The notes beneath the pieces were generated by a model, which searched no databases, had not been told where the DNA came from, and was given only the letters and a program-made list of their open reading frames with translations. This document shows positions 2,560 to 18,906 of a stretch of DNA of 64,000 bases, in pieces. A program made the position numbers and the translations under genes. Each line of letters opens with the position of its first letter. Position 1 is the first letter of the stretch. This DNA is from Oscillospiraceae bacterium (GTDB lineage: Bacteria; Bacillota; Clostridia; Oscillospirales; Oscillospiraceae): NCBI GenBank assembly GCA_022846095.1, contig AP025583.1, positions 124,001 through 188,000 on the forward strand. Reading direction: 5' to 3'.

Positions 2560-3645
2560 ATGAAACAAGACAAGATCTCCATGCGGCAGCTGCTGGTGCT
2601 GCTCTTTTCAGCCATACTGTCCCCCGCCATCCAGATCCTGCCCGCCCGGGGCGCCGAGCTGGCCGGGCGGGCGGGGTGGCTGTCCACCCTGTTCGCCCTG
2701 CCCGTGCTGCTGGGACTGTGCTGGGTGTTTTTCGCCCTCCAGCGCGCGGCGGGCGAGGGGGAGGGGCTGGCCGGGGCCTTCCGCGCCGTACTGGGGACGG
2801 CGGGGGGCAAGGCGCTGACGGCGGTCTACCTGGCCTGGGGCGTGGTGATGCTGAGCGCCGGAGCCCGGCGGTGCGCCCTGCGCATCCTCTCCACCGGCTA
2901 CCGAAACGCGGCGCTGCCCCTGTTTATCGTCCTGCTGCTGGGCGCCGCCCTGTGGATGGGCCGGGGGCGGCTGCCCGCCCTGGCCCGGGCGGGGGAGATC
3001 TTCTACCTGGCCCTCTCCGCCGTGCTGGCGCTGACGATCTTCTTCTCCTTATTCAATGTAGAGGCCCGCAACGTGCTGCCCATATGGGTGGGGGATCTGC
3101 CCGCGGCCCTGCGTGCCACCCTGCCCGCCCTGTCGGTGCTGGGGTACGCGGTCTTTGCCGCCTTCCTGGGGGGCGGCGTGGCGCCCAGGGAGGACAACCG
3201 GGGGCGGGGCATGCGCTGGGCCGCCGCGGCCTGCCTGGTGCTGACCGCAATGCAGTTCGCCTGCCTGGGCAACTTCGGCCCGGAGCTGGTGGGACGCATG
3301 GACACCCCCTTCTTCTCCATGGCGGAGGGAATCGGCCTGGAGGGGGCCTTCCAGCGGGCCGAGTCGGTGGTGGTGGCCCTGTGGGTCTTTTCCGATCTGG
3401 CGCTGCTGGGGCTGCTGGTCTTTTCCTGCCGCGCCATGGCGGGCAGCCTGCTGGGCCCCTCCATAGAGCGGTATTCCCCTTATGTCATTGTTGCCCTGGC
3501 CCTGGCGGGGGCCCTCTTTTTGTTCCCCGACGCCTTCTCACTGACCGCGTTTTTGGACCGCTGGGCCACGGCGGGGAATCTGGTTCTGGGCTTCGTGGTG
3601 CCCCTGCTGGTTTTTCTTTTGGGAAAGTTGCGCAGGAAGGTATAA
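2560..3645 (+). CDS. GerB-family germination permease subunit
   Basis: Endospore germination permease (GerAB/GerKB family, APC superfamily), the subunit thought to bind the germinant. The frame is open much further upstream, but that part is out-of-frame translation of the lipoprotein gene. I chose ATG 2560 (MKQDKISMRQLLVLLFSAIL) because GGGAGG lies a few bases upstream; an in-frame ATG at 2512 would overlap the preceding gene. The 361 residues are almost entirely hydrophobic, with about ten membrane helices, the usual size for the family. It closes the ger operon; no strong terminator is visible before the rRNA promoters. Confidence 0.9.
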   Translation: MKQDKISMRQLLVLLFSAILSPAIQILPARGAELAGRAGWLSTLFALPVLLGLCWVFFALQRAAGEGEGLAGAFRAVLGTAGGKALTAVYLAWGVVMLSAGARRCALRILSTGYRNAALPLFIVLLLGAALWMGRGRLPALARAGEIFYLALSAVLALTIFFSLFNVEARNVLPIWVGDLPAALRATLPALSVLGYAVFAAFLGGGVAPREDNRGRGMRWAAAACLVLTAMQFACLGNFGPELVGRMDTPFFSMAEGIGLEGAFQRAESVVVALWVFSDLALLGLLVFSCRAMAGSLLGPSIERYSPYVIVALALAGALFLFPDAFSLTAFLDRWATAGNLVLGFVVPLLVFLLGKLRRKV

Positions 3646-10067: not shown

Positions 10068-10143
10068 GCTGCTGTAGCTCAGGTGGTAGAGCACATCCTT
10101 GGTAAGGATGAGGTCTCCAGTTCGAATCTGGATAGCAGCTCCA
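10068..10143 (+). tRNA. tRNA-Thr (GGT), integration target
   Basis: Acceptor GCTGCTG pairs with TAGCAGC; anticodon loop TTGGTAA gives GGT; CCA at 10141-10143. The 3' 45 bases, from the anticodon loop to CCA, are repeated exactly at 18828-18872. This gene is therefore a host 5' half completed by a 3' half that the integrated element brought with it. Confidence 0.95.
10099..10143. repeat. Left att core (45-bp direct repeat)
   Basis: Identical to 18828-18872. It starts in the anticodon loop of tRNA-Thr and ends with CCA, so recombination here regenerates a functional tRNA. By convention it is the attachment site on the integrase side. Confidence 0.92.
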
Positions 10144-10145
10144 TG

Positions 10146-10188
10146 AAAAACCCTGTAACCGCAATGGTTACGGGGTTTTTACTTTTTT
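10146..10188 (+). terminator. Rho-independent terminator after tRNA-Thr
   Basis: A 15-bp stem (AAAAACCCTGTAACC with GGTTACGGGGTTTTT, one G-T), loop GCAAT, followed by a T-rich tail to 10188. It lies just inside the element, so it is element-borne and replaces the host terminator now displaced to 18875. Confidence 0.88.
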
Positions 10189-10259: not shown

Positions 10260-11468
10260 TCATCCCTGCCCGGCTATCTTCATGTCATTCTTTAGGGCGT
10301 TTCTGAAAATCTGGCTGGCCCGCTTCATGCTCTCCTGGTCGGCGTGGGTGTACATCCGCAGCGTGACGCCTTTATCACTGTGCCCCAGCTTCTCGGATAC
10401 ACTGGCAATGTCGGCCCCGCTGGTGATCGCGATGCTGGCGAAGGTGTGCCGCAGCTTGTGGGGGTGCAAGTCGAGGACGCTGTAGCGCGCGGAAAACTTT
10501 TTCATGTACCGGGTAGGGCTCTGCGGGTGCATCGGCTCAGGGCTGTTGTCCTGAGTGAAAACAAAGGAGCTGATGGCGTGGGCGGCCTGTTCGCTCCGCA
10601 GGGAGCGGAGCAGCGCCATAATCTCCGGGTCTACGTCAACCACGCGGGCCTTTCCATTCTTGGGGGTGTCCAGGTATACCCCCTTCTGAGGTGTGTAGCA
10701 GAGGTTGCCCGCAATGGTGATGGTGCTGTCCTTGAAATTCAGGTTCTCCCATTTCAGGCCGCAGCACTCTCCGCGCCGTATCCCTGTATCGATGAGGAGC
10801 CGGATGAGCACACGCCACTTTGGCGGCTCGTTGTCCAGGGCTGCAAGTATCCGGCGTACCTGCTCCACCGTGTAGGCCTCCACCTCCGGCTCCCTGGCTT
10901 CATCCTTGCGGGGGCGGGGGCGCTCCACCTTGTCCATGGGGTTCTTGGGTATGGTGTCGGAGAGATAGGCCATTTTAAACAGGCCGTTGAGGATGGTATA
11001 GCATTTTACGACTGTGGCGTGGGCTTTGCCTTGGGCCTGCATGGACAGCAGCAGGGCGGATATATTGGCCGGGGTAATATCGGGCATTTTCAGGTTGCCA
11101 AGGGCGGGGTAGATCCAGCGGTCGAGCTGGCATTGGAAGCTGCACCGGCTGTTCTCCGCCATGGAGATGGTTTTTGCAGGCATGAAGACCTCTTCCCCAT
11201 ATTGGCTGAGGGTCTGAACCTTGGCGGACTCCCGCTTGGCGGCCAGCTCCCGTTCCGCCTGCTCCGCGCGGCTGATGACCTCGCCCGCGTCACATTGGCG
11301 CTCAAAATCGGCGGCCACCTTGGACAGCTCCCGGTCTATGGCCCGCTGGCTCCAGCCCTCAGGGGGATACCACCGTGTGGAAAGGGGCGCGACGCCACGC
11401 CCGCGGCTGACACGAATCTCATAGAAAACCAAGCCGGATTTGTTGGCCTTTCTCCTGGTAGACGGCAT
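10260..11468 (-). CDS. Tyrosine-type site-specific integrase
   Basis: Catalyses integration and excision of the element at tRNA-Thr. The 402 residues comprise an N-terminal arm-binding-like segment (about 1-80), a SAM-like core-binding domain (about 85-185) and the catalytic domain (about 195-390). The catalytic set is intact: Arg231 in DTGIRRGE, Lys near 270, His337 and Arg340 in HPHKLRHTF, His363 in LGHSD and nucleophile Tyr373 in RMYTH. It reads toward the att site and tRNA, 117 bases from the core. A Shine-Dalgarno-like GGAAAAGGGA precedes ATG 11468. Tn916/ICE-type integrases are the closest kind; length is normal. Confidence 0.95.
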   Translation of the reverse strand: MPSTRRKANKSGLVFYEIRVSRGRGVAPLSTRWYPPEGWSQRAIDRELSKVAADFERQCDAGEVISRAEQAERELAAKRESAKVQTLSQYGEEVFMPAKTISMAENSRCSFQCQLDRWIYPALGNLKMPDITPANISALLLSMQAQGKAHATVVKCYTILNGLFKMAYLSDTIPKNPMDKVERPRPRKDEAREPEVEAYTVEQVRRILAALDNEPPKWRVLIRLLIDTGIRRGECCGLKWENLNFKDSTITIAGNLCYTPQKGVYLDTPKNGKARVVDVDPEIMALLRSLRSEQAAHAISSFVFTQDNSPEPMHPQSPTRYMKKFSARYSVLDLHPHKLRHTFASIAITSGADIASVSEKLGHSDKGVTLRMYTHADQESMKRASQIFRNALKNDMKIAGQG

Positions 11469-11554: not shown

Positions 11555-11594
11555 CCCGCTTGGAGGTTGCAGCCTCCGAGCGGGTTTTATTTTT
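11555..11594 (+). terminator. Plus-strand terminator between two minus-strand genes
   Basis: CCCGCTTGGAGG pairs with CCTCCGAGCGGG (one T-G), followed by TTTTATTTTT. The U-tract is on the plus side only, although both neighbours are minus-strand genes. It implies a short plus-strand transcript, perhaps starting after the extended -10 TGTGCTAGAAT at 11490-11500, antisense to the integrase leader. Confidence 0.6.
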
Positions 11595-12177
11595 CTACAT
11601 AATCAATCAGTTTTAATAATTCTTTCTTTAGCCCTACACTATCACCGGGGAAAATACCCATTAATTCTTGCTGTGCGCTCAATAGTACCTTTGAATGGAG
11701 AAGCCGAATCACGTATTGCTGAGGCAAATCATCAAGTAGTCCTTCATATTGCCCTTGGACAAGATAAAACGCAATATATAACTCTAGCCCCGTAATGTTA
11801 TCGCGCTTTATATGTGCAATGATATTCGCTTTTGCCTCTTCATTGGACATTATATGCAGTTCTTCCCATAGATGCTTTTCATATTCTGAAATATCCTTAG
11901 TACTGATAGATTCTAATTCGCTAAGAGAGGTATAAAGGTTTCCATCTCCATCTGTAAAAAGTGTAATTTCGTCTCCGACTGCTAAAATGTCGGAAACTGA
12001 GGTGTGGTATATATCGCAAAGTTTGGTTAGTGTCTCTACGTCTACTCGATTTGTGCCGCGTTCATAATTGCTGATAGCCTGCGGGGTAATTTCTAAAAGC
12101 TGTGCAACTTCTGATTGTGTCATTCCTGCACTAATTCTGGCACGCTTTATTTTGTCTGCTAGTCCGCCATTGCCCAC
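11587..12177 (-). CDS. XRE-family repressor (CI-like) of the element
   Basis: Likely master repressor. Residues about 5-60 form a lambda-repressor-type HTH (ARISAGMTQSEVAQLLEITP then QAISNYERG); residues 70-196 are an uncharacterised helical C-terminal region, with no LexA-like Ser/Lys protease motif seen. The start is GTG 12177, eight bases after GGGAGG. It is transcribed divergently from the small XRE gene at 12375 from a promoter whose -35 overlaps an operator (12227-12241), so self-regulation is likely. Base composition is much more AT-rich than in the flanking host genes, consistent with transfer. Confidence 0.82.
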   Translation of the reverse strand: MGNGGLADKIKRARISAGMTQSEVAQLLEITPQAISNYERGTNRVDVETLTKLCDIYHTSVSDILAVGDEITLFTDGDGNLYTSLSELESISTKDISEYEKHLWEELHIMSNEEAKANIIAHIKRDNITGLELYIAFYLVQGQYEGLLDDLPQQYVIRLLHSKVLLSAQQELMGIFPGDSVGLKKELLKLIDYVEK

Positions 12178-12201: not shown

Positions 12202-12230
12202 ATTATATACACTTTTGCGCATTAAGTCAA
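12202..12230 (-). promoter_or_regulatory. Repressor promoter (minus strand)
   Basis: On the minus strand TTGACT (12225-12230), 17-base spacer, TATAAT (12202-12207), about 25 bases before the GTG start of the repressor gene. The -35 lies within the first operator copy. Confidence 0.82.
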
Positions 12231-12355
12231 CAATTCATTGAGTCTGAGTGTGCAACATAATAACTAAATAAATCATTGAGTTTTTGTATGCACTGTCAAT
12301 TGAACTAAACGAATTGTTGAGCTATACTAAAAGCGTAAACTCAACAAATCATTGA
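12227..12355. repeat. Four operator repeats of the divergent switch
   Basis: The dyad TCAA-N7-TTGA recurs: TCAACAATTCATTGA at 12227-12241; TAAATAAATCATTGA (one good half) at 12265-12279; TAAACGAATTGTTGA (reverse orientation, one good half) at 12306-12320; TCAACAAATCATTGA at 12341-12355. Copy 1 covers the -35 of the leftward promoter, copy 3 fills the spacer of the rightward promoter, and copy 4 lies at its start region. This placement is typical of a bistable phage-like switch. Confidence 0.8.
12300..12328 (+). promoter_or_regulatory. Rightward element promoter
   Basis: TTGAAC (12300-12305), 17-base spacer containing operator copy 3, TATACT (12323-12328). It drives the gene run starting at 12375. 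Confidence 0.82.
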
Positions 12356-12374: not shown

Positions 12375-12650
12375 ATGGTACGCAGAGTAGTTACAGCATC
12401 TGGAAATGGAGAACGTATTTTCACAGCGCGCGTTTACAACGGTATGAGCATGAGGGACTTAGCAGAAAAGGCTGGAGTTAGCGCTTCTGCAATTCATAAG
12501 ATTGAAAGCGGCGAATCTGGCACGGTTAGACCTGTTAATGCACGAAAAATTTGTGCAGCACTCGGAAAATCCTTTGATGACTTGTTTACCATTAAGGAGA
12601 AGGAACCCGAGCGGAAAAGCAAGGATGTCGGCAGCGACAAACCCGCATAA
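12375..12650 (+). CDS. Small XRE-family regulator (Cro-like)
   Basis: A 91-residue DNA-binding protein. An XRE HTH spans about residues 15-70 (RDLAEKAGVSASAIHKIESG), followed by a short charged tail. It starts at ATG 12375 after a strong GGAGGTGAT. It is the first gene of the rightward transcript, opposite the repressor at 11587 and separated from it by the operator-rich region, so a Cro-like antagonist role is inferred from position. Confidence 0.82.
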   Translation: MVRRVVTASGNGERIFTARVYNGMSMRDLAEKAGVSASAIHKIESGESGTVRPVNARKICAALGKSFDDLFTIKEKEPERKSKDVGSDKPA

Positions 12651-12655
12651 TCCCC

Positions 12656-12679
12656 AAATCCGCAACCAGTTGCGGATTT
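12656..12679. repeat. Element palindrome, copy 1
   Basis: Perfect inverted repeat, arms AAATCCGCAAC and GTTGCGGATTT around CA. Related palindromes are at 17931-17960 and 18617-18646. There is no U-tract, so a simple terminator role is doubtful; a second short hairpin GCGCCCGAGCGGGCGC follows at 12693-12708. Confidence 0.75.
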
Positions 12680-12731
12680 GCCCATGAAAAAAGCGCCCGA
12701 GCGGGCGCGGTACGATGAAAGGAGAGTAACT

Positions 12732-12989
12732 ATGGCAAGGGAAAGACAGGTTCCATTCCAGAAAATCCAGGAGGCGTGCAAGACCACCGGCTTTTCCATG
12801 TACTTCTTGCGCAAGGGGTGCCTGGACGGGACGGTGCCCCATGTGAAGAGCGGAAGCACGTATTACATCAACGTGCCCGCGCTGCTCCGCCGCCTGGGGG
12901 CAACCACGGAGGAGCCGGAGGGGAGCGGCACGGGGGAACGGGCGGCAAAGGTCACCGACATCAGCGCCGCAGGGCGGAAACGGGCGTGA
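12732..12989 (+). CDS. Excisionase-like HTH DNA-binding protein
   Basis: Small 85-residue protein with a MerR/Xis-type winged-helix pattern: FQKIQEACKTTGFSMYFLRK, then a GTVPHVKSGSTYYINVPALL wing-like segment. Such proteins direct integrases toward excision. The frame opens at 12678, but ATG 12732 follows a clear AAAGGAGAG and gives the usual N-terminus. Its stop is two bases before the next ATG, so translation is probably coupled. Confidence 0.75.
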   Translation: MARERQVPFQKIQEACKTTGFSMYFLRKGCLDGTVPHVKSGSTYYINVPALLRRLGATTEEPEGSGTGERAAKVTDISAAGRKRA

Positions 12990-12991
12990 GT

Positions 12992-13561
12992 ATGCGTCTA
13001 TCCATGTGGGAAGGCGCGGCCCTTCTTGCCGCCCTGGCTGTGGCCCTGTCGTCAGAAGCGCTGCTGGACAAGCCGTTCGGCCCGCTCGCGCTCATGGCCG
13101 CCGTGGCCCTACCCGCCCTGCTGGTATGGACGGCACACCGTCTACCCGGCACGGTGCCCGACCGCAGGCGGGGGCATAGGGAAAGCCGCCCCGGTGTCAC
13201 AACCACCAGGACGGCCACGGGAACGACAAGTGCAAGCCCATCTATTCCACGCCTCTATTTTACAGGGGCAGAAAGGTTTTGTCAAATGCCGAATTGTGAA
13301 ATTATCCAGGCCCTCTATCTGGCCTGCGGCGGCTTTACTGTTGAGAGCATGAACCGGGAGTATGTACACCTCCCCAGCGCCGAGGAGGCCAGCGAGCGGG
13401 CCAGATGGGCCGTGGAGCAGGGAGAGACGGCGGAGCTGGAGGAGCTGTGCGCGGCCACGGAGGCCGAGCATGAGATCCAGGGGTTTGTGAACGGCTTCCG
13501 CATGGGGGTGCGGCTCATGGTCGAGTGCGCCACCTCCGCCGCAGGAGGTGACCGGGCATGA
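12992..13561 (+). CDS. DUF6809-like protein with N-terminal membrane segments
   Basis: The 189-residue frame has two distinct parts. Residues 1-50 form two hydrophobic helices; residues 50-98 are a Pro/Arg/Thr-rich linker. The part from Met99 (ATG 13286, MPNCEIIQALYLACGG) to the end resembles small DUF6809 proteins of clostridial mobile elements, ending in HEIQGFVNGFRMGVRLM. An AAAGG nine bases before 13286 makes an internal start possible, in which case the membrane part would be a separate or non-coding stretch. No stop separates them, and ATG 12992 is coupled to the upstream stop. Function unknown. Confidence 0.6.
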   Translation: MRLSMWEGAALLAALAVALSSEALLDKPFGPLALMAAVALPALLVWTAHRLPGTVPDRRRGHRESRPGVTTTRTATGTTSASPSIPRLYFTGAERFCQMPNCEIIQALYLACGGFTVESMNREYVHLPSAEEASERARWAVEQGETAELEELCAATEAEHEIQGFVNGFRMGVRLMVECATSAAGGDRA

Positions 13562-13883: not shown

Positions 13884-14192
13884 ATGGACATTGCGTTTCT
13901 GAAAGCCCTCTATTACGCCTGCTCCAACCCGAGCGGGCAAACCGCCCTGCTACCGCTCCACGCCCGGTACCTTGACCTAACGGAGCCCCAGCGCGTCCTG
14001 TGCCGGCTCTACGCCCTGCTGGGGGACGATGTGGCAGATGACCTGGACTGCACCATAGGCGAGTGCGCAACGGCCTATGAGCTCCAGGGGTTCGTGAACG
14101 GCTTCCGCTACGGGGCCATGCTGGCCGGAGAGCTGGCCGGGGACTTTCCCCGCCAGCTCTGGCACCCTGAAACCCCTTTGGGAGAAACATAA
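13884..14192 (+). CDS. DUF6809-like small protein
   Basis: A 102-residue protein: MDIAFLKALYYACSNPSGQT at the N-terminus and YELQGFVNGFRYGAMLAGEL near the C-terminus, the same end signature as the protein at 12992-13561, so the two are paralogs. A G-rich Shine-Dalgarno (AAAGGGGGGCG) precedes ATG 13884. Proteins of this kind are common in clostridial integrative elements; no biochemical function is known to me. Confidence 0.68.
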   Translation: MDIAFLKALYYACSNPSGQTALLPLHARYLDLTEPQRVLCRLYALLGDDVADDLDCTIGECATAYELQGFVNGFRYGAMLAGELAGDFPRQLWHPETPLGET

Positions 14193-14261: not shown

Positions 14262-14768
14262 ATGAAAAATCGAAGTATAAAGTCGGACAGCGCAAGGCAG
14301 CGGCTGAACCTGTATCAGTCGCTGGGGAAGCTGGCGCACGTCTTGGAGGCCAATTTCACCACTGGGGATACCCTGGTTACCCTGGCATATGACGGGGCCC
14401 ACCGGCCCCGCTCGCGGGAGCTGGCGGCCTGCTATCTGCGGGATTGGCTGGAGACTGTCCGCGGGCTGCGCAGCGAGCAGGGACAGGGCCTGCGCTATGT
14501 CTATGGGACGGACTGTGGCCAGGAGGACGGCGGCCCCATCCACCGCGTTGTGCTCGTCGCAACAGACTGCGACGTTGCCGCTATGGTTGCGCTGTGGCCC
14601 TATGGCCGCGCCAGTGCGGAGCGGCTGGAGCTGGGGGACGGGTGCCGCGAGCTGGCCTCCCTGCTCATGCGGGAAGCCGTGGAGGCAGGGCACGCCCCCG
14701 TGCCCTGTGGGCGCATGTGGGTACCCTCTGTGGGCCTGGAGAGGCCGGGGCGGCCTCATGCGGGGTAA
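14262..14768 (+). CDS. Rep-like protein lacking HUH residues, paralog 1
   Basis: A 168-residue protein that aligns by eye with the HUH initiator at 15884: LEANFTTGDTLVTLAYDGAH matches LAANFTRRDLFLTLTYRP, and RYVYGTDCG...IHRVVLVATDCDVAAMVALWPYG matches KYVYVTEDK...LHHHIVLKATERDIEVIRSLWPHG. The metal-binding histidine cluster is reduced to a single His (IHRVVL, residue 94), and no tyrosine equivalent to the Rep YATWAGYV segment is present. A nicking activity is therefore unlikely; DNA binding or regulation of Rep is an inference. Start: ATG 14262 after GGAGGACGGG. Confidence 0.7.
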   Translation: MKNRSIKSDSARQRLNLYQSLGKLAHVLEANFTTGDTLVTLAYDGAHRPRSRELAACYLRDWLETVRGLRSEQGQGLRYVYGTDCGQEDGGPIHRVVLVATDCDVAAMVALWPYGRASAERLELGDGCRELASLLMREAVEAGHAPVPCGRMWVPSVGLERPGRPHAG

Positions 14769-14772
14769 GGCG

Positions 14773-15264
14773 ATGGCTCAGCGCGGCACGAAATCCAGCC
14801 GCAGCATGAGGCGGGGGAACTTGAGGCGGTCGCTGGAGCGGCTGGAACGCCTCCTGGCGGCCAACTTTGCCACGGGGGATACCCTGGTCACCCTGGCATA
14901 CGACGGGGCCCAGCGCCCCCGCTCGCGGGAGCTGGCGGGATGTCATTTTTACAGCTGGATAAGGGCTGTCCGTACGGTTTATAGCGGCTGTGGGAAAGGC
15001 CTGCGCTATGCCTACGGTGTGGTGTGGGCCACCGATGAACGCGGGCCCATGTACCGCGTGATACTCAATACCTCCCAGGCCAACGGGGCCGCCCTGGCAG
15101 CGCTGTGGCCGCATGGCCCCGCAAGTGCGGAGCGGCTGAGACTGGAGGGCGGGTGCCATGAGCTGGCCGCCCTGCTCATGCGGCAGGCCGTGGAGGCCGG
15201 GGAAACCCCTGTCCCCTGTAGGCGGGTATGGGGTGCGTCCAGGAACATCATCAAGCCGGAATAA
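14773..15264 (+). CDS. Rep-like protein lacking HUH residues, paralog 2
   Basis: Closest to the preceding gene (shared GDTLVTLAYDGA, PRSRELA, LWP.GPASAERL and PVPC segments) and also related to the Rep at 15884; its end WGASRNIIKPE matches the Rep WTASRNMVKPK. The histidine cluster is replaced by MYRVIL, so metal binding is lost. I chose ATG 14773 (GGGGTAAGG upstream; the length then matches paralog 1); ATG 14758, overlapping the upstream stop, is the alternative. Likely a tandem duplicate, retained intact despite loss of catalytic residues. Confidence 0.68.
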   Translation: MAQRGTKSSRSMRRGNLRRSLERLERLLAANFATGDTLVTLAYDGAQRPRSRELAGCHFYSWIRAVRTVYSGCGKGLRYAYGVVWATDERGPMYRVILNTSQANGAALAALWPHGPASAERLRLEGGCHELAALLMRQAVEAGETPVPCRRVWGASRNIIKPE

Positions 15265-15277
15265 GGGAGCAGTATTT

Positions 15278-15670
15278 ATGAATTATTTGATTCACCCCGC
15301 AGAGGGGTACTTACAGGCGGTTAAGGCGTTGAAGGTGGCGCTGGCCGCCCCGATGGATAAGAAGCGGAGCAGAGAGGCCCAGGAGCGCGAGCGGGCCACG
15401 CTGGAAGTGGCGTTGGAGGCCCTGCGATACGCGGCGCTGTGCGCCGAGAATCCCCCGCTGACCCGAGCACACCTGAAGGACATGCACGGACGGGCCGTCT
15501 ACCTGGAGCACCCCCCGCAGGCAGGAACACTGGCGGGAATTGTGGATTGCAGGAATGAAACCATCCTAAGCTTGAGCCCATTTGGAGGAGCGGATACGCA
15601 CGAGTGGTTTTGCGGGAATACCGGGCGGTACTACCGCTTCCCACTCGGCGGCGCGGGCCTCATGAAATAG
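15278..15670 (+). CDS. Hypothetical protein of the element (130 aa)
   Basis: Starts at ATG 15278 with AGGGAG eight bases upstream. The N-terminal half is helical and charged (MDKKRSREAQERERATLEVA), containing one predicted long helix. The C-terminal half (HGRAVYLEHPPQAGTLAGIV ... HEWFCGNTGRYYRF) looks like the small beta-rich domain seen in many phage and plasmid hypothetical proteins, but I cannot assign a family. It lies in the same gene run between the Rep paralogs and the Rep gene. A 213-base gap without a gene follows. Confidence 0.6.
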   Translation: MNYLIHPAEGYLQAVKALKVALAAPMDKKRSREAQERERATLEVALEALRYAALCAENPPLTRAHLKDMHGRAVYLEHPPQAGTLAGIVDCRNETILSLSPFGGADTHEWFCGNTGRYYRFPLGGAGLMK

Positions 15671-15883
15671 CCCCCAGTGATACAAGGTTGCCGGTGCCCG
15701 CGTGGCCAGTGCAGGAGACACGCGCCGGGGCGGGCCCGGCTCACTCATTGCCGGCGAAAATCGGAGAGCCAGGGCCCACGCCGCAGTGCCAGAGCCGGAG
15801 CCAACAGCGCCCACTGGGGAATGTCCCGAGCGGGTATGCGGTTTGTTCCGGCTCTTTCTTATCTATTAACGAGAGGTGCCATC

Positions 15884-16630
15884 ATGGCCAAACGGAAAAA
15901 GACTATCACAGCGGGGAACCTGGTCAAGACCATCCTGTATAACGCCCCGGAGCCCCGCGACGGCGAGCGGGCGCGGGCGGCCAAGTCCCGCATCACCAGC
16001 GCGGCGCAGAAAGCCATGAACGACAAGACAGCCCGTGGGCGGCTGGAAATGCTCCTGGCGGCCAATTTCACCCGGCGCGACCTCTTCCTTACCCTGACCT
16101 ACCGCCCCACCGATTTGCCCGCCCAGCGGGCCCAGGCGGTCAAGAACGTGCGGCGCTTCCTGAAGCTGCTGCGGGAGTACCGCAAGGCGCGGGGTATTCC
16201 CATGAAATACGTGTATGTCACCGAGGACAAGCACGGAGCAGGCAAGCTCCACCACCATATTGTCCTGAAGGCCACTGAGCGGGACATTGAGGTGATCCGC
16301 AGCCTGTGGCCCCATGGGGATGTCGTTGACATCGAGTATATCGGGAGCCGGGAGTACGCCACGTGGGCCGGGTATGTGACCAAGGAGGGCGTACAGGGCC
16401 GCCCGGTGGGGGCGCAGATGTGGACGGCCAGCCGAAACATGGTTAAGCCCAAGGTGACAACCAGCTTTGCTGCAGAGGATGAAACCCTTGCACCTCCTCC
16501 CGGATGTCATGTCATCGAGCGGGAGGAGAAGGTTACAGAGTTTGGTAGTTACTGTTATATTAAGTACTGTGTACTTCCTAAATACTGGGAGAATCGGAGG
16601 CCGGAGGACAGAGCTTTGGAGCCCCTTTAG
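15884..16630 (+). CDS. HUH-type rolling-circle replication initiator
   Basis: Predicted Rep endonuclease that nicks the element origin to start rolling-circle replication of the excised circle. The 248 residues show motif 1 FLTLTY (about 68-73), motif 2 with the metal-binding histidines KLHHHIVL (His123-125) and motif 3 with candidate nucleophiles in EYATWAGYVTKEG (Tyr158, Tyr164, Lys167). The architecture is that of compact phage/plasmid Rep proteins without a helicase domain. Start ATG 15884 has GAGAGGTG seven bases upstream; the open frame before it is not used. The repeat-rich non-coding region downstream is the natural place for its origin. Confidence 0.82.
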   Translation: MAKRKKTITAGNLVKTILYNAPEPRDGERARAAKSRITSAAQKAMNDKTARGRLEMLLAANFTRRDLFLTLTYRPTDLPAQRAQAVKNVRRFLKLLREYRKARGIPMKYVYVTEDKHGAGKLHHHIVLKATERDIEVIRSLWPHGDVVDIEYIGSREYATWAGYVTKEGVQGRPVGAQMWTASRNMVKPKVTTSFAAEDETLAPPPGCHVIEREEKVTEFGSYCYIKYCVLPKYWENRRPEDRALEPL

Positions 16631-16791: not shown

Positions 16792-17112
16792 ATGGGAGAT
16801 ATGGCGACGGTGCGGTGCAGGGAGACCAACGGGGCCATGTGGGTGATATGCCCGGTATGCAGGGCCGGGAAGGTGTTGAAGCTGCGCATGGGAACCAAGG
16901 CGCGCAACCTGACGGTGTATTGCAGGCAGTGCAAGCACGAAAGCGTGATTGACATAGGGCCGGGAGAGGGTGGGGGAGCAGGGCCCCGCGTGACACTGGC
17001 CGTATATCCGCCTACCCCGGGGGGTGGGCAAAAAAGTATGCCTTACCACGGCGCAACACCGCAGGCTGTCTGTTCTGCGGCAAAGACTCCCCGATGCCCG
17101 GAAACGGCATAG
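16792..17112 (+). CDS. Cysteine-rich KTR-type zinc-ribbon protein
   Basis: Contains MWVICPVCRAGKVLKLRMGT followed by LTVYCRQCKHESVIDI: two CxxC knuckles 25 residues apart that should bind one zinc. This matches the small cysteine-rich KTR proteins of clostridial conjugative elements, whose role is unknown. The usual protein ends soon after the second knuckle; here a Gly/Pro-rich tail of about 45 residues follows. I chose ATG 16792 (AAAGGGGCGGTCAGG upstream); the frame is open from 16714 and ATG 16801 is also possible. Confidence 0.7.
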   Translation: MGDMATVRCRETNGAMWVICPVCRAGKVLKLRMGTKARNLTVYCRQCKHESVIDIGPGEGGGAGPRVTLAVYPPTPGGGQKSMPYHGATPQAVCSAAKTPRCPETA

Positions 17113-17300
17113 CGTGGTTTCCTCTGCATTTCTTGTTTTACCTGTCGCTCCCGCGTAGCAGGAGCGCACGCGAGGCAAAACAGGCCCCAAAATGAGTAAA
17201 AATCGGTCGCTTCACGGCGTGCTGGCTACGTACATGCCCGGATGCTCTGGCGCAGGTGCGACTGGGTGTGTGGGGGCACGTGCGCGGGGCCTACGGCCCG

Positions 17301-17347
17301 TACCTCCCCCCAGGGGCGGAAAGTTTCAAGACGTGGGTCGCAAGACC
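17301..17347 (+). repeat. Degenerate 47-base repeat, copy A
   Basis: Starts TACCTCCCCCC and ends CGCAAGACC, with GAAAGTTT in the middle; the same anchors occur in copy B at 17495-17540. Each copy is preceded by a GC hairpin (GGGCCTACGGCCC here), reminiscent of a stem-loop plus nick-site origin layout. Confidence 0.6.
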
Positions 17348-17494
17348 CCGAGGCCTCTCGGGTGTGAGAAAAAGTCCCGCATCAGAGATTCACCGCCCGC
17401 AGCGTATATAAAACGGGCTAAACCAGAGGTGTTATACGGGGGCAAATATCTGGGAAGGGCGGGATGCTTGGGCGGGCATGCGCCCGCGTGCGGT

Positions 17495-17540
17495 TACCTC
17501 CCCCCACCCCTCGAAAGTTTAAGTTTGTTGGCGCAAGACC
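17495..17540 (+). repeat. Degenerate 46-base repeat, copy B
   Basis: Shares TACCTCCCCCC, CGAAAGTTT and CGCAAGACC with copy A about 194 bases upstream, and is preceded by the hairpin GCGGGCATGCGCCCGC (17472-17487). Confidence 0.6.
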
Positions 17541-17650
17541 GCATGGCACCATTGGCGTAAGATTTTTTCCCCATGTAGAAACGGGGAGGCCCGCTCGAAA
17601 ATGAGTTTCGCCCGCATGTGGATGCTGCCTGTTCCTGTAGCCTGGGTGGC

Positions 17651-17917
17651 TCCCGGCCCGCTCGGTGGCCATTCCTGCGGGCGGTGCCCGTCCCCGTGGC
17701 CTGGGCGGCGCTCAGCTCGCCGGGGGTGATTTCCTGCTGGCGGTGCCCGTTCCTGCGGTCAGGGCTGTTCCCGGCCCGCTCGGGGGCCATTCCTGTGGGC
17801 GGTGCCCGTTCCTGCGGCCAGGGCGGCTCCCGGCCCGCTCGGCGGCCATTCCTGCGGATGGTGCCCGTTCCCGTGGCCTGGGCGGCTCCCGGCCCGCTCG
17901 GTGGACATTCCTGCGGG
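17651..17917. repeat. 59-bp tandem repeat array
   Basis: Units start at 17651, 17710, 17769, 17828 and 17887, an exact 59-base period, with most units beginning TCCCGGCCCGCTCGG; the last is cut short and a partial unit precedes 17651. Unit 2 is the most diverged. Since 59 is not a multiple of three, the array is not a protein repeat. GC content is very high. Confidence 0.85.
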
Positions 17918-17930
17918 TAAGGCTCGGGCC

Positions 17931-17960
17931 CTCAAACCCGCAGCCGGTTGCGGATTTGAG
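17931..17960. repeat. Element palindrome, copy 2
   Basis: CTCAAACCCGCAGC and GTTGCGGATTTGAG around CG, 14-base arms with one mismatch and one wobble. Related to the palindromes at 12656 and 18617. Confidence 0.7.
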
Positions 17961-17990
17961 GAGGGTATAGATTAGCGTGTGTATGCAATG

Positions 17991-18613: not shown

Positions 18614-18616
18614 GAA

Positions 18617-18646
18617 GACAAATCCGCAACCGGCTGCGGATTTGTC
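18617..18646. repeat. Element palindrome, copy 3
   Basis: GACAAATCCGCAAC and GCTGCGGATTTGTC around CG: 14-base arms with one mismatch. It directly abuts the -35 of the coiled-coil gene promoter, so a protein-binding role is plausible. Confidence 0.75.
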
Positions 18647-18827: not shown

Positions 18828-18872
18828 TTGGTAAGGATGAGGTCTCCAGTTCGAATCTGGATAGCAGCTCCA
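18828..18872. repeat. Right att core (tRNA-Thr 3' fragment)
   Basis: Exact 45-base copy of the tRNA-Thr 3' end without the 5' half. This is the original chromosomal 3' end displaced by integration, not a tRNA pseudogene arising by decay. Confidence 0.92.
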
Positions 18873-18874
18873 AG

Positions 18875-18906
18875 AAAGCCCGTAACCGCCAGGTTACGGG
18901 CTTTTT
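18875..18906 (+). terminator. Original tRNA-Thr terminator
   Basis: AAAGCCCGTAACC pairs with GGTTACGGGCTTT, loop GCCA, then a T-run to 18906. It resembles the element-borne terminator at 10146, as if the element evolved to restore transcription termination after the tRNA. Confidence 0.85.

Follow-up and report, generated by a model that had tools for sequence, protein, structure and literature searches.

In a gut bacterium, a small integrative element about 8.7 kb long, lying at a tRNA-Thr gene in the 64,000-nt stretch of DNA analysed here (the window), encodes two Rep-like proteins, pseudo-Reps A and B, next to the active rolling-circle Rep of the same element. Both keep the HUH core and lack the catalytic residues, and non-catalytic partners of this kind recur beside Rep in relatives from several genera. 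At the level of sequence, their homology to Rep and the loss of catalytic residues are established, as are conservation, selection and the order of the genes. The fold and the family are already known; what appears to be new is the separate, conserved, dead HUH partner. No separate gene of this type beside an active Rep of a bacterial element was found in the literature searched, in which few subscription journals were covered. Restraint of rolling-circle initiators usually comes from antisense RNA, repressors or self-inactivation, and a separately encoded, conserved dead paralog would add another way of restraining them.

The three genes are located on the forward strand, with pseudo-Rep A (14262-14768, 168 aa) and pseudo-Rep B (14773-15264, 163 aa, pI 10.4) upstream of Rep (15884-16630, 248 aa) and in the same orientation. 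The coordinates and frames given in a preliminary description of this DNA were right, and all three proteins match the phrog_3584 profile "replication initiation protein" (2.4e-23 for A, 5.3e-23 for B and 5.1e-57 for Rep). Local alignments give 54% identity between A and B and 28-31% between either of them and Rep; as BLASTP against Rep returns 8e-19 (A) and 6e-13 (B), this resemblance is not due to chance. The gathering cut-off of PF23343 (REP_ORF2-G2P), 27.8 bits, is passed by Rep with 55.5 bits (7e-15), whereas the pseudo-Reps stay below it with 16.9 and 12.0 bits. Rep is a regular member of the REP_ORF2-G2P/phrog_3584 Reps (HUH, single tyrosine, Y1); the pseudo-Reps share homology with these in the HUH core but differ from them in lacking both histidines, the tyrosine and usually an acidic residue. 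Only this core is left of them (about residues 30-190 of Rep), the N-terminal hairpin and the C-terminal domain being absent.

Motif 2 reads LHHHIVL in Rep, PIHRVVL in A and PMYRVIL in B, so that the two metal-binding histidines of a catalytic HUH protein, H123 and H125 in Rep, are replaced by I.R and M.R. Motif 3 reads AGYVTKE in Rep (Y164 to K167), ASLLMRE in A and AALLMRQ in B, with leucine in both at the position of the catalytic tyrosine Y164. This agrees with the preliminary description, according to which only the protein at 15884 retains the histidine cluster and the motif-3 tyrosine, with IHRVVL in A and MYRVIL in B. Its view of A and B as intact, tandem, non-catalytic relatives of an initiator also holds; the roles that it proposed for them (regulating copy number, binding the origin or blocking Rep) are candidate roles. 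Two changes go beyond that description, namely the alteration in A and B of the motif-3 lysine and of E114, an acidic residue invariant in Reps that is probably the third metal ligand.

Structure prediction supports an HUH/RRM-like Rep fold for pseudo-Rep B, and not the unrelated folds that had been named as the outcome speaking against an initiator relative. The AlphaFold2 models of B (pLDDT 90.2, pTM 0.86) and of Rep (pLDDT 86.3, pTM 0.82) have the same closest solved structure, SIRV1 ORF119 (PDB 2x3g; Z 9.7 and 9.8, respectively; E 1.5e-3 for B), which is well ahead of the next-ranked structures for both models; because Reps were present in the alignment used, the B model is not fully independent of them. 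SIRV1 ORF119 is itself a viral Rep-fold protein, with 6% identity to B in the structural alignment. Other PDB matches of B found by Foldseek, all with weak E-values, include the Rep domains of circovirus, parvovirus, geminivirus and pMV158 and the DNA-binding domain of papillomavirus E1, and the top viral matches in BFVD are phage ORF2/G2P Reps (TM 0.80).

When 11 non-catalytic proteins were compared with 50 catalytic Reps (Rep numbering), the near-invariant structural residues N61, F62, Y73, W142, G145, W180 and S183 were retained in the non-catalytic proteins. H123, H125 and Y164 were gone from all 11, and E114 from 10 (Asp in three). At the position of H125, nine have arginine and two have tyrosine; in all upstream-type partners this third histidine of the motif has become arginine. 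Most partners are basic (pI 9.1-11), with the exceptions of pseudo-Rep A, which is near neutral (pI 7.7), and the acidic protein of locus L105. Of 173 homologous stretches from all collected loci, 144 have both histidines and the tyrosine; the full-length stretches short of the full set all lack at least H123 (H1) and Y164 together, and single-loss intermediates were not seen. The loss is all-or-none.

In a tree of partners and Reps that excludes the motif columns, the 12 rows of non-catalytic proteins stand together on one side of a branch, separated from every catalytic Rep with support of 98/94, which makes a single old loss of catalysis the simplest account of these sequences; branches are long in this tree and a root was not inferred. 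Comparison of substitution rates indicates that the partners are under purifying selection yet evolve faster than Rep, with dN/dS values of 0.11-0.34 for partner orthologs and of 0.08-0.13 for Rep in the same pairs. Identity to the Rep of the window is 67-71% among the clade's Reps, and identity to pseudo-Rep A is 31-54% among the partners. Between A and B, dN/dS is 0.40-0.64, from which it follows that the duplicates are less constrained. Truncated copies of Rep that retain HUH and Tyr lie directly upstream of the full Rep at L095 (5824-6375, reverse strand) and L120 (2483-3007), and may represent how such partners begin.

A scan of named genomes for this Rep clade gave 16 loci with 65-74% identity, from Flavonifractor, Pseudoflavonifractor, Dysosmobacter, Oscillibacter and further relatives, to which the window adds a seventeenth. 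A partner is present in 11 of these 17 elements: directly upstream of Rep in nine (the window, L098 and L100-L106, from several genera) and downstream in two (L107, L108). None was detected in the remaining six (L096, L097, L099, L109, L110, L111). A search of the window's own family, which overlaps with the scan as some assemblies are identical, found dead copies beside Rep in eight genomes including the window, with closely similar partners, and a divergent partner beside Rep in one further genome. Its duplication is specific to the window, relatives carrying a single copy. Most bearers are intact, the upstream partner of L103 being frameshifted, so that absence or frame breakage in relatives, the other outcome named as contrary, is not the general picture. 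Outside the window's family, the matches of a class-wide search all had the long open frames that catalytic Reps have; matches in phages and plasmids were distant and mostly Rep-like. Scans of viral contigs, for which both pseudo-Rep A and the Rep clade served as queries, gave no confirmed relatives, and 65 more distant Rep loci there had no non-catalytic partner. In another family of the order, L079 encodes a small Rep-like protein without H1 and Tyr downstream of Rep (2684-3178).

The similar arrangement of dead partners across genera suggests that these proteins control the copying of the element. For the reading we prefer, in which they are separately encoded pseudo-HUH proteins that have kept binding and tune, probably restrain, the replication of the element, the chances are about even. 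An ancient lineage within the Rep family of the element would have shrunk to the HUH core domain and lost all cutting residues, keeping the fold in a mostly basic protein in which arginine replaces the active-site histidine. Such a protein could retain a putative binding activity, towards the origin, the leader or Rep, without cutting, and would either occupy the DNA target of Rep or pair with Rep in non-productive complexes, so that the copy number, or the replication of the element once excised, would be held down. That the partners bind nucleic acid, that they interact with Rep and that the effect is negative are our inferences. Binding to DNA is less than certain for some of them, given the near-neutral pI of pseudo-Rep A and the acidic L105 protein, and strict recognition of a conserved origin would not predict divergence as fast as that of the partners relative to the Reps. 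The absence of a partner from six of 17 close Rep relatives favours an accessory modulator over an obligate subunit. A wider generalisation, that a stand-alone pseudo-HUH family of mobile elements in Oscillospiraceae, possibly also in a neighbouring family, controls rolling-circle replication in trans, with the change from His to Arg serving a new binding role, is put forward only tentatively.

Several known systems resemble this arrangement in part and serve as precedents for the preferred reading, above all pIGRK and pT181, where truncated or inactive Reps are inhibitors. In pT181, replication is limited by the inactive RepC* subunit of the RepC/RepC* heterodimer (PMC5703833, PMC4797284); the likeness lies in a catalytically dead Rep that limits replication, but the dead form of pT181 is a used enzyme with an oligonucleotide adduct, whereas the pseudo-Reps are separate genes. 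In pIGRK and R6K, short Rep forms (RepR' and pi30.5) antagonise the full Rep, and RepR' was proposed to block the origin or to pair with RepR (PMC6854812). These forms arise from an internal start in one gene, in contrast to the pseudo-Reps, which are diverged paralogous genes. The origin-binding domains of polyomavirus T-antigen and papillomavirus E1 have the HUH fold with every catalytic motif lost (PMC6668415), and are alike in this respect. They are, however, joined to an SF3 helicase and constitute the initiator, while the pseudo-Reps (163-168 aa, the HUH core alone) have no such fusion and stand alone beside an active Rep.

The viral domains bring up the first alternative, a positive accessory role in which a non-cutting subunit aids Rep in origin recognition or melting, as a heteromer with one active subunit. 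It has in its favour that catalysis-less HUH domains bind origins in polyoma- and papillomaviruses (PMC6668415) and that adjacency to Rep or to a conserved origin-like element is maintained; the six close Rep relatives with no detected partner and the fast divergence relative to Rep speak against it, and we consider it unlikely. A second alternative is a weapon or shield against other rolling-circle elements, in which dominant-negative pseudo-Reps would block competing Reps (incompatibility or exclusion). The faster evolution relative to Rep, the duplication in the window, the presence-absence pattern among relatives and the frequency of Rep relatives in phage contigs fit this idea, but the genes are neighbours of the Rep that the element itself encodes and do not belong to a separate cargo region, and it is rather improbable.

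A third alternative concerns RNA. Just upstream of Rep lies a conserved structured stretch on the forward strand (15704-15883), a candidate leader or origin, which the window shares with five elements that have a pseudo-Rep upstream; its part at 15771-15883 has a stable RNA fold (z -3.4) that pairs with the Rep ribosome-binding site. An RRM-like HUH core binding this leader could control Rep translation as an autoregulator. Of the 46 consensus pairs in six elements, however, only four have two-sided changes, and L101, L104 and L105 have a partner without the leader, so that this role seems decidedly improbable. That A and B are functionless decaying duplicates, open by chance in GC-rich DNA, has very little left in its favour and is largely refuted already: the frameshift in L103, the modest constraint between A and B and the truncated, motif-bearing Rep copies of L095 and L120 are outweighed by the low ortholog dN/dS, the intact frames of most bearers and the one old branch with its common H-to-R change.

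Returning to the preferred reading, in which the partners restrain replication, a candidate target is found downstream of Rep. Here the window contains two forward-strand copies of a conserved, undescribed non-coding element, at 17236-17413 and 17456-17593 (nhmmer profile 1e-24 and 4e-23). This origin-like element, about 150-180 nt long, follows Rep in most relatives, among them phage contigs (the window, L099, L106, L107, L108, L131-L154 and L079), and could be a double-strand origin or an RNA. Its core is CCCCCC..AAAGTTT..AAGACCGC..TCCCC, in many cases preceded by a hairpin with a varying stem and a three-base loop (mean stem 5.8 against 3.6 in shuffles). Rfam returned no family for it, and RNAalifold gave no consensus structure for a 36-row alignment because the hairpin region is badly aligned. 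The downstream-type partners (L107, L108, L079, L094) all come after this element, the L079 gene starting immediately behind it. The element is doubled solely in partner-bearing elements (the window, L106, L107, L108); a link between its copy number and the presence of a partner was nevertheless dropped, since other bearers have one copy.

HUH enzymes double as biotechnology tags. If the preferred reading is true, the pseudo-Reps would be a natural dominant-negative for HUH enzymes; under the wider, tentative generalisation they would be the prokaryotic counterpart of the origin-binding domains with dead HUH folds in polyoma- and papillomaviruses. They also amount to a natural experiment, in which catalysis was apparently lost once, long ago, and the fold was kept beside an active enzyme in many elements; as dead and active forms exist side by side, it becomes possible to tell apart what DNA binding, partner binding and cutting each contribute.

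The element that harbours these genes is bounded by 50-nt direct repeats of 98% identity on the forward strand, one at the 3' end of tRNA-Thr (10099-10148) and one at the opposite end (18828-18877), whose 45-nt core is found at exactly two places in the 4.3-Mb genome. With its tyrosine integrase (10260-11468, reverse strand, 402 aa; relatives at L087 and L091 are 80% and 79% identical) and att repeats at a tRNA 3' end, it is an integrative element that uses a tRNA site. The L091 element, on the same contig as L106 (Flavonifractor An82), adjoins a similar tRNA array, has a matching tRNA-Thr-derived repeat and carries a single pseudo-Rep upstream of Rep. Two HTH regulators, assigned from their ORF sequences, are arranged divergently: a Cro/CI-like one on the reverse strand (11587-12177), divergent from the Rep operon and with relatives in sister elements, and a second on the forward strand (12375-12650), with relatives in L089 and L090. 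They are followed on the forward strand by an excisionase-like small DNA-binding protein (12732-12989), which has a weak match to TIGR01764 (E 0.1) and relatives of about 70% identity in L087 and L091. Two DUF6809-like proteins (13286-13561 and 13884-14192) adjoin the duplicated pseudo-Reps and are seemingly duplicated as well (87% over 39 nt). Between the pseudo-Reps and Rep lies a small accessory ORF (15278-15670, forward strand; 41% to a relative in L088), and similar ORFs precede Rep in L096 and L097, both without pseudo-Reps. Behind Rep, a small Zn-ribbon protein (Cys_rich_KTR, 16798-17112, forward strand) matches PF14205 with 39.3 bits against a cut-off of 25.5. No capsid or conjugation genes are among the element's listed ORFs.

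Three kinds of repeat were also observed in the element. Between the divergent HTH genes, at 12224-12355, an 18-nt AACTCAACAAATCATTGA-like repeat occurs four times and resembles the operators of a lysogeny-type switch. A near-palindrome of 26-30 nt, CAAATCCGCAACCGGTTGCGGATTTG-like, occurs three times across the element (12652-12680, 17930-17958 and 18616-18644), and a 59-bp repeat is present in five tandem copies at 17617-17976, downstream of the origin-like element.
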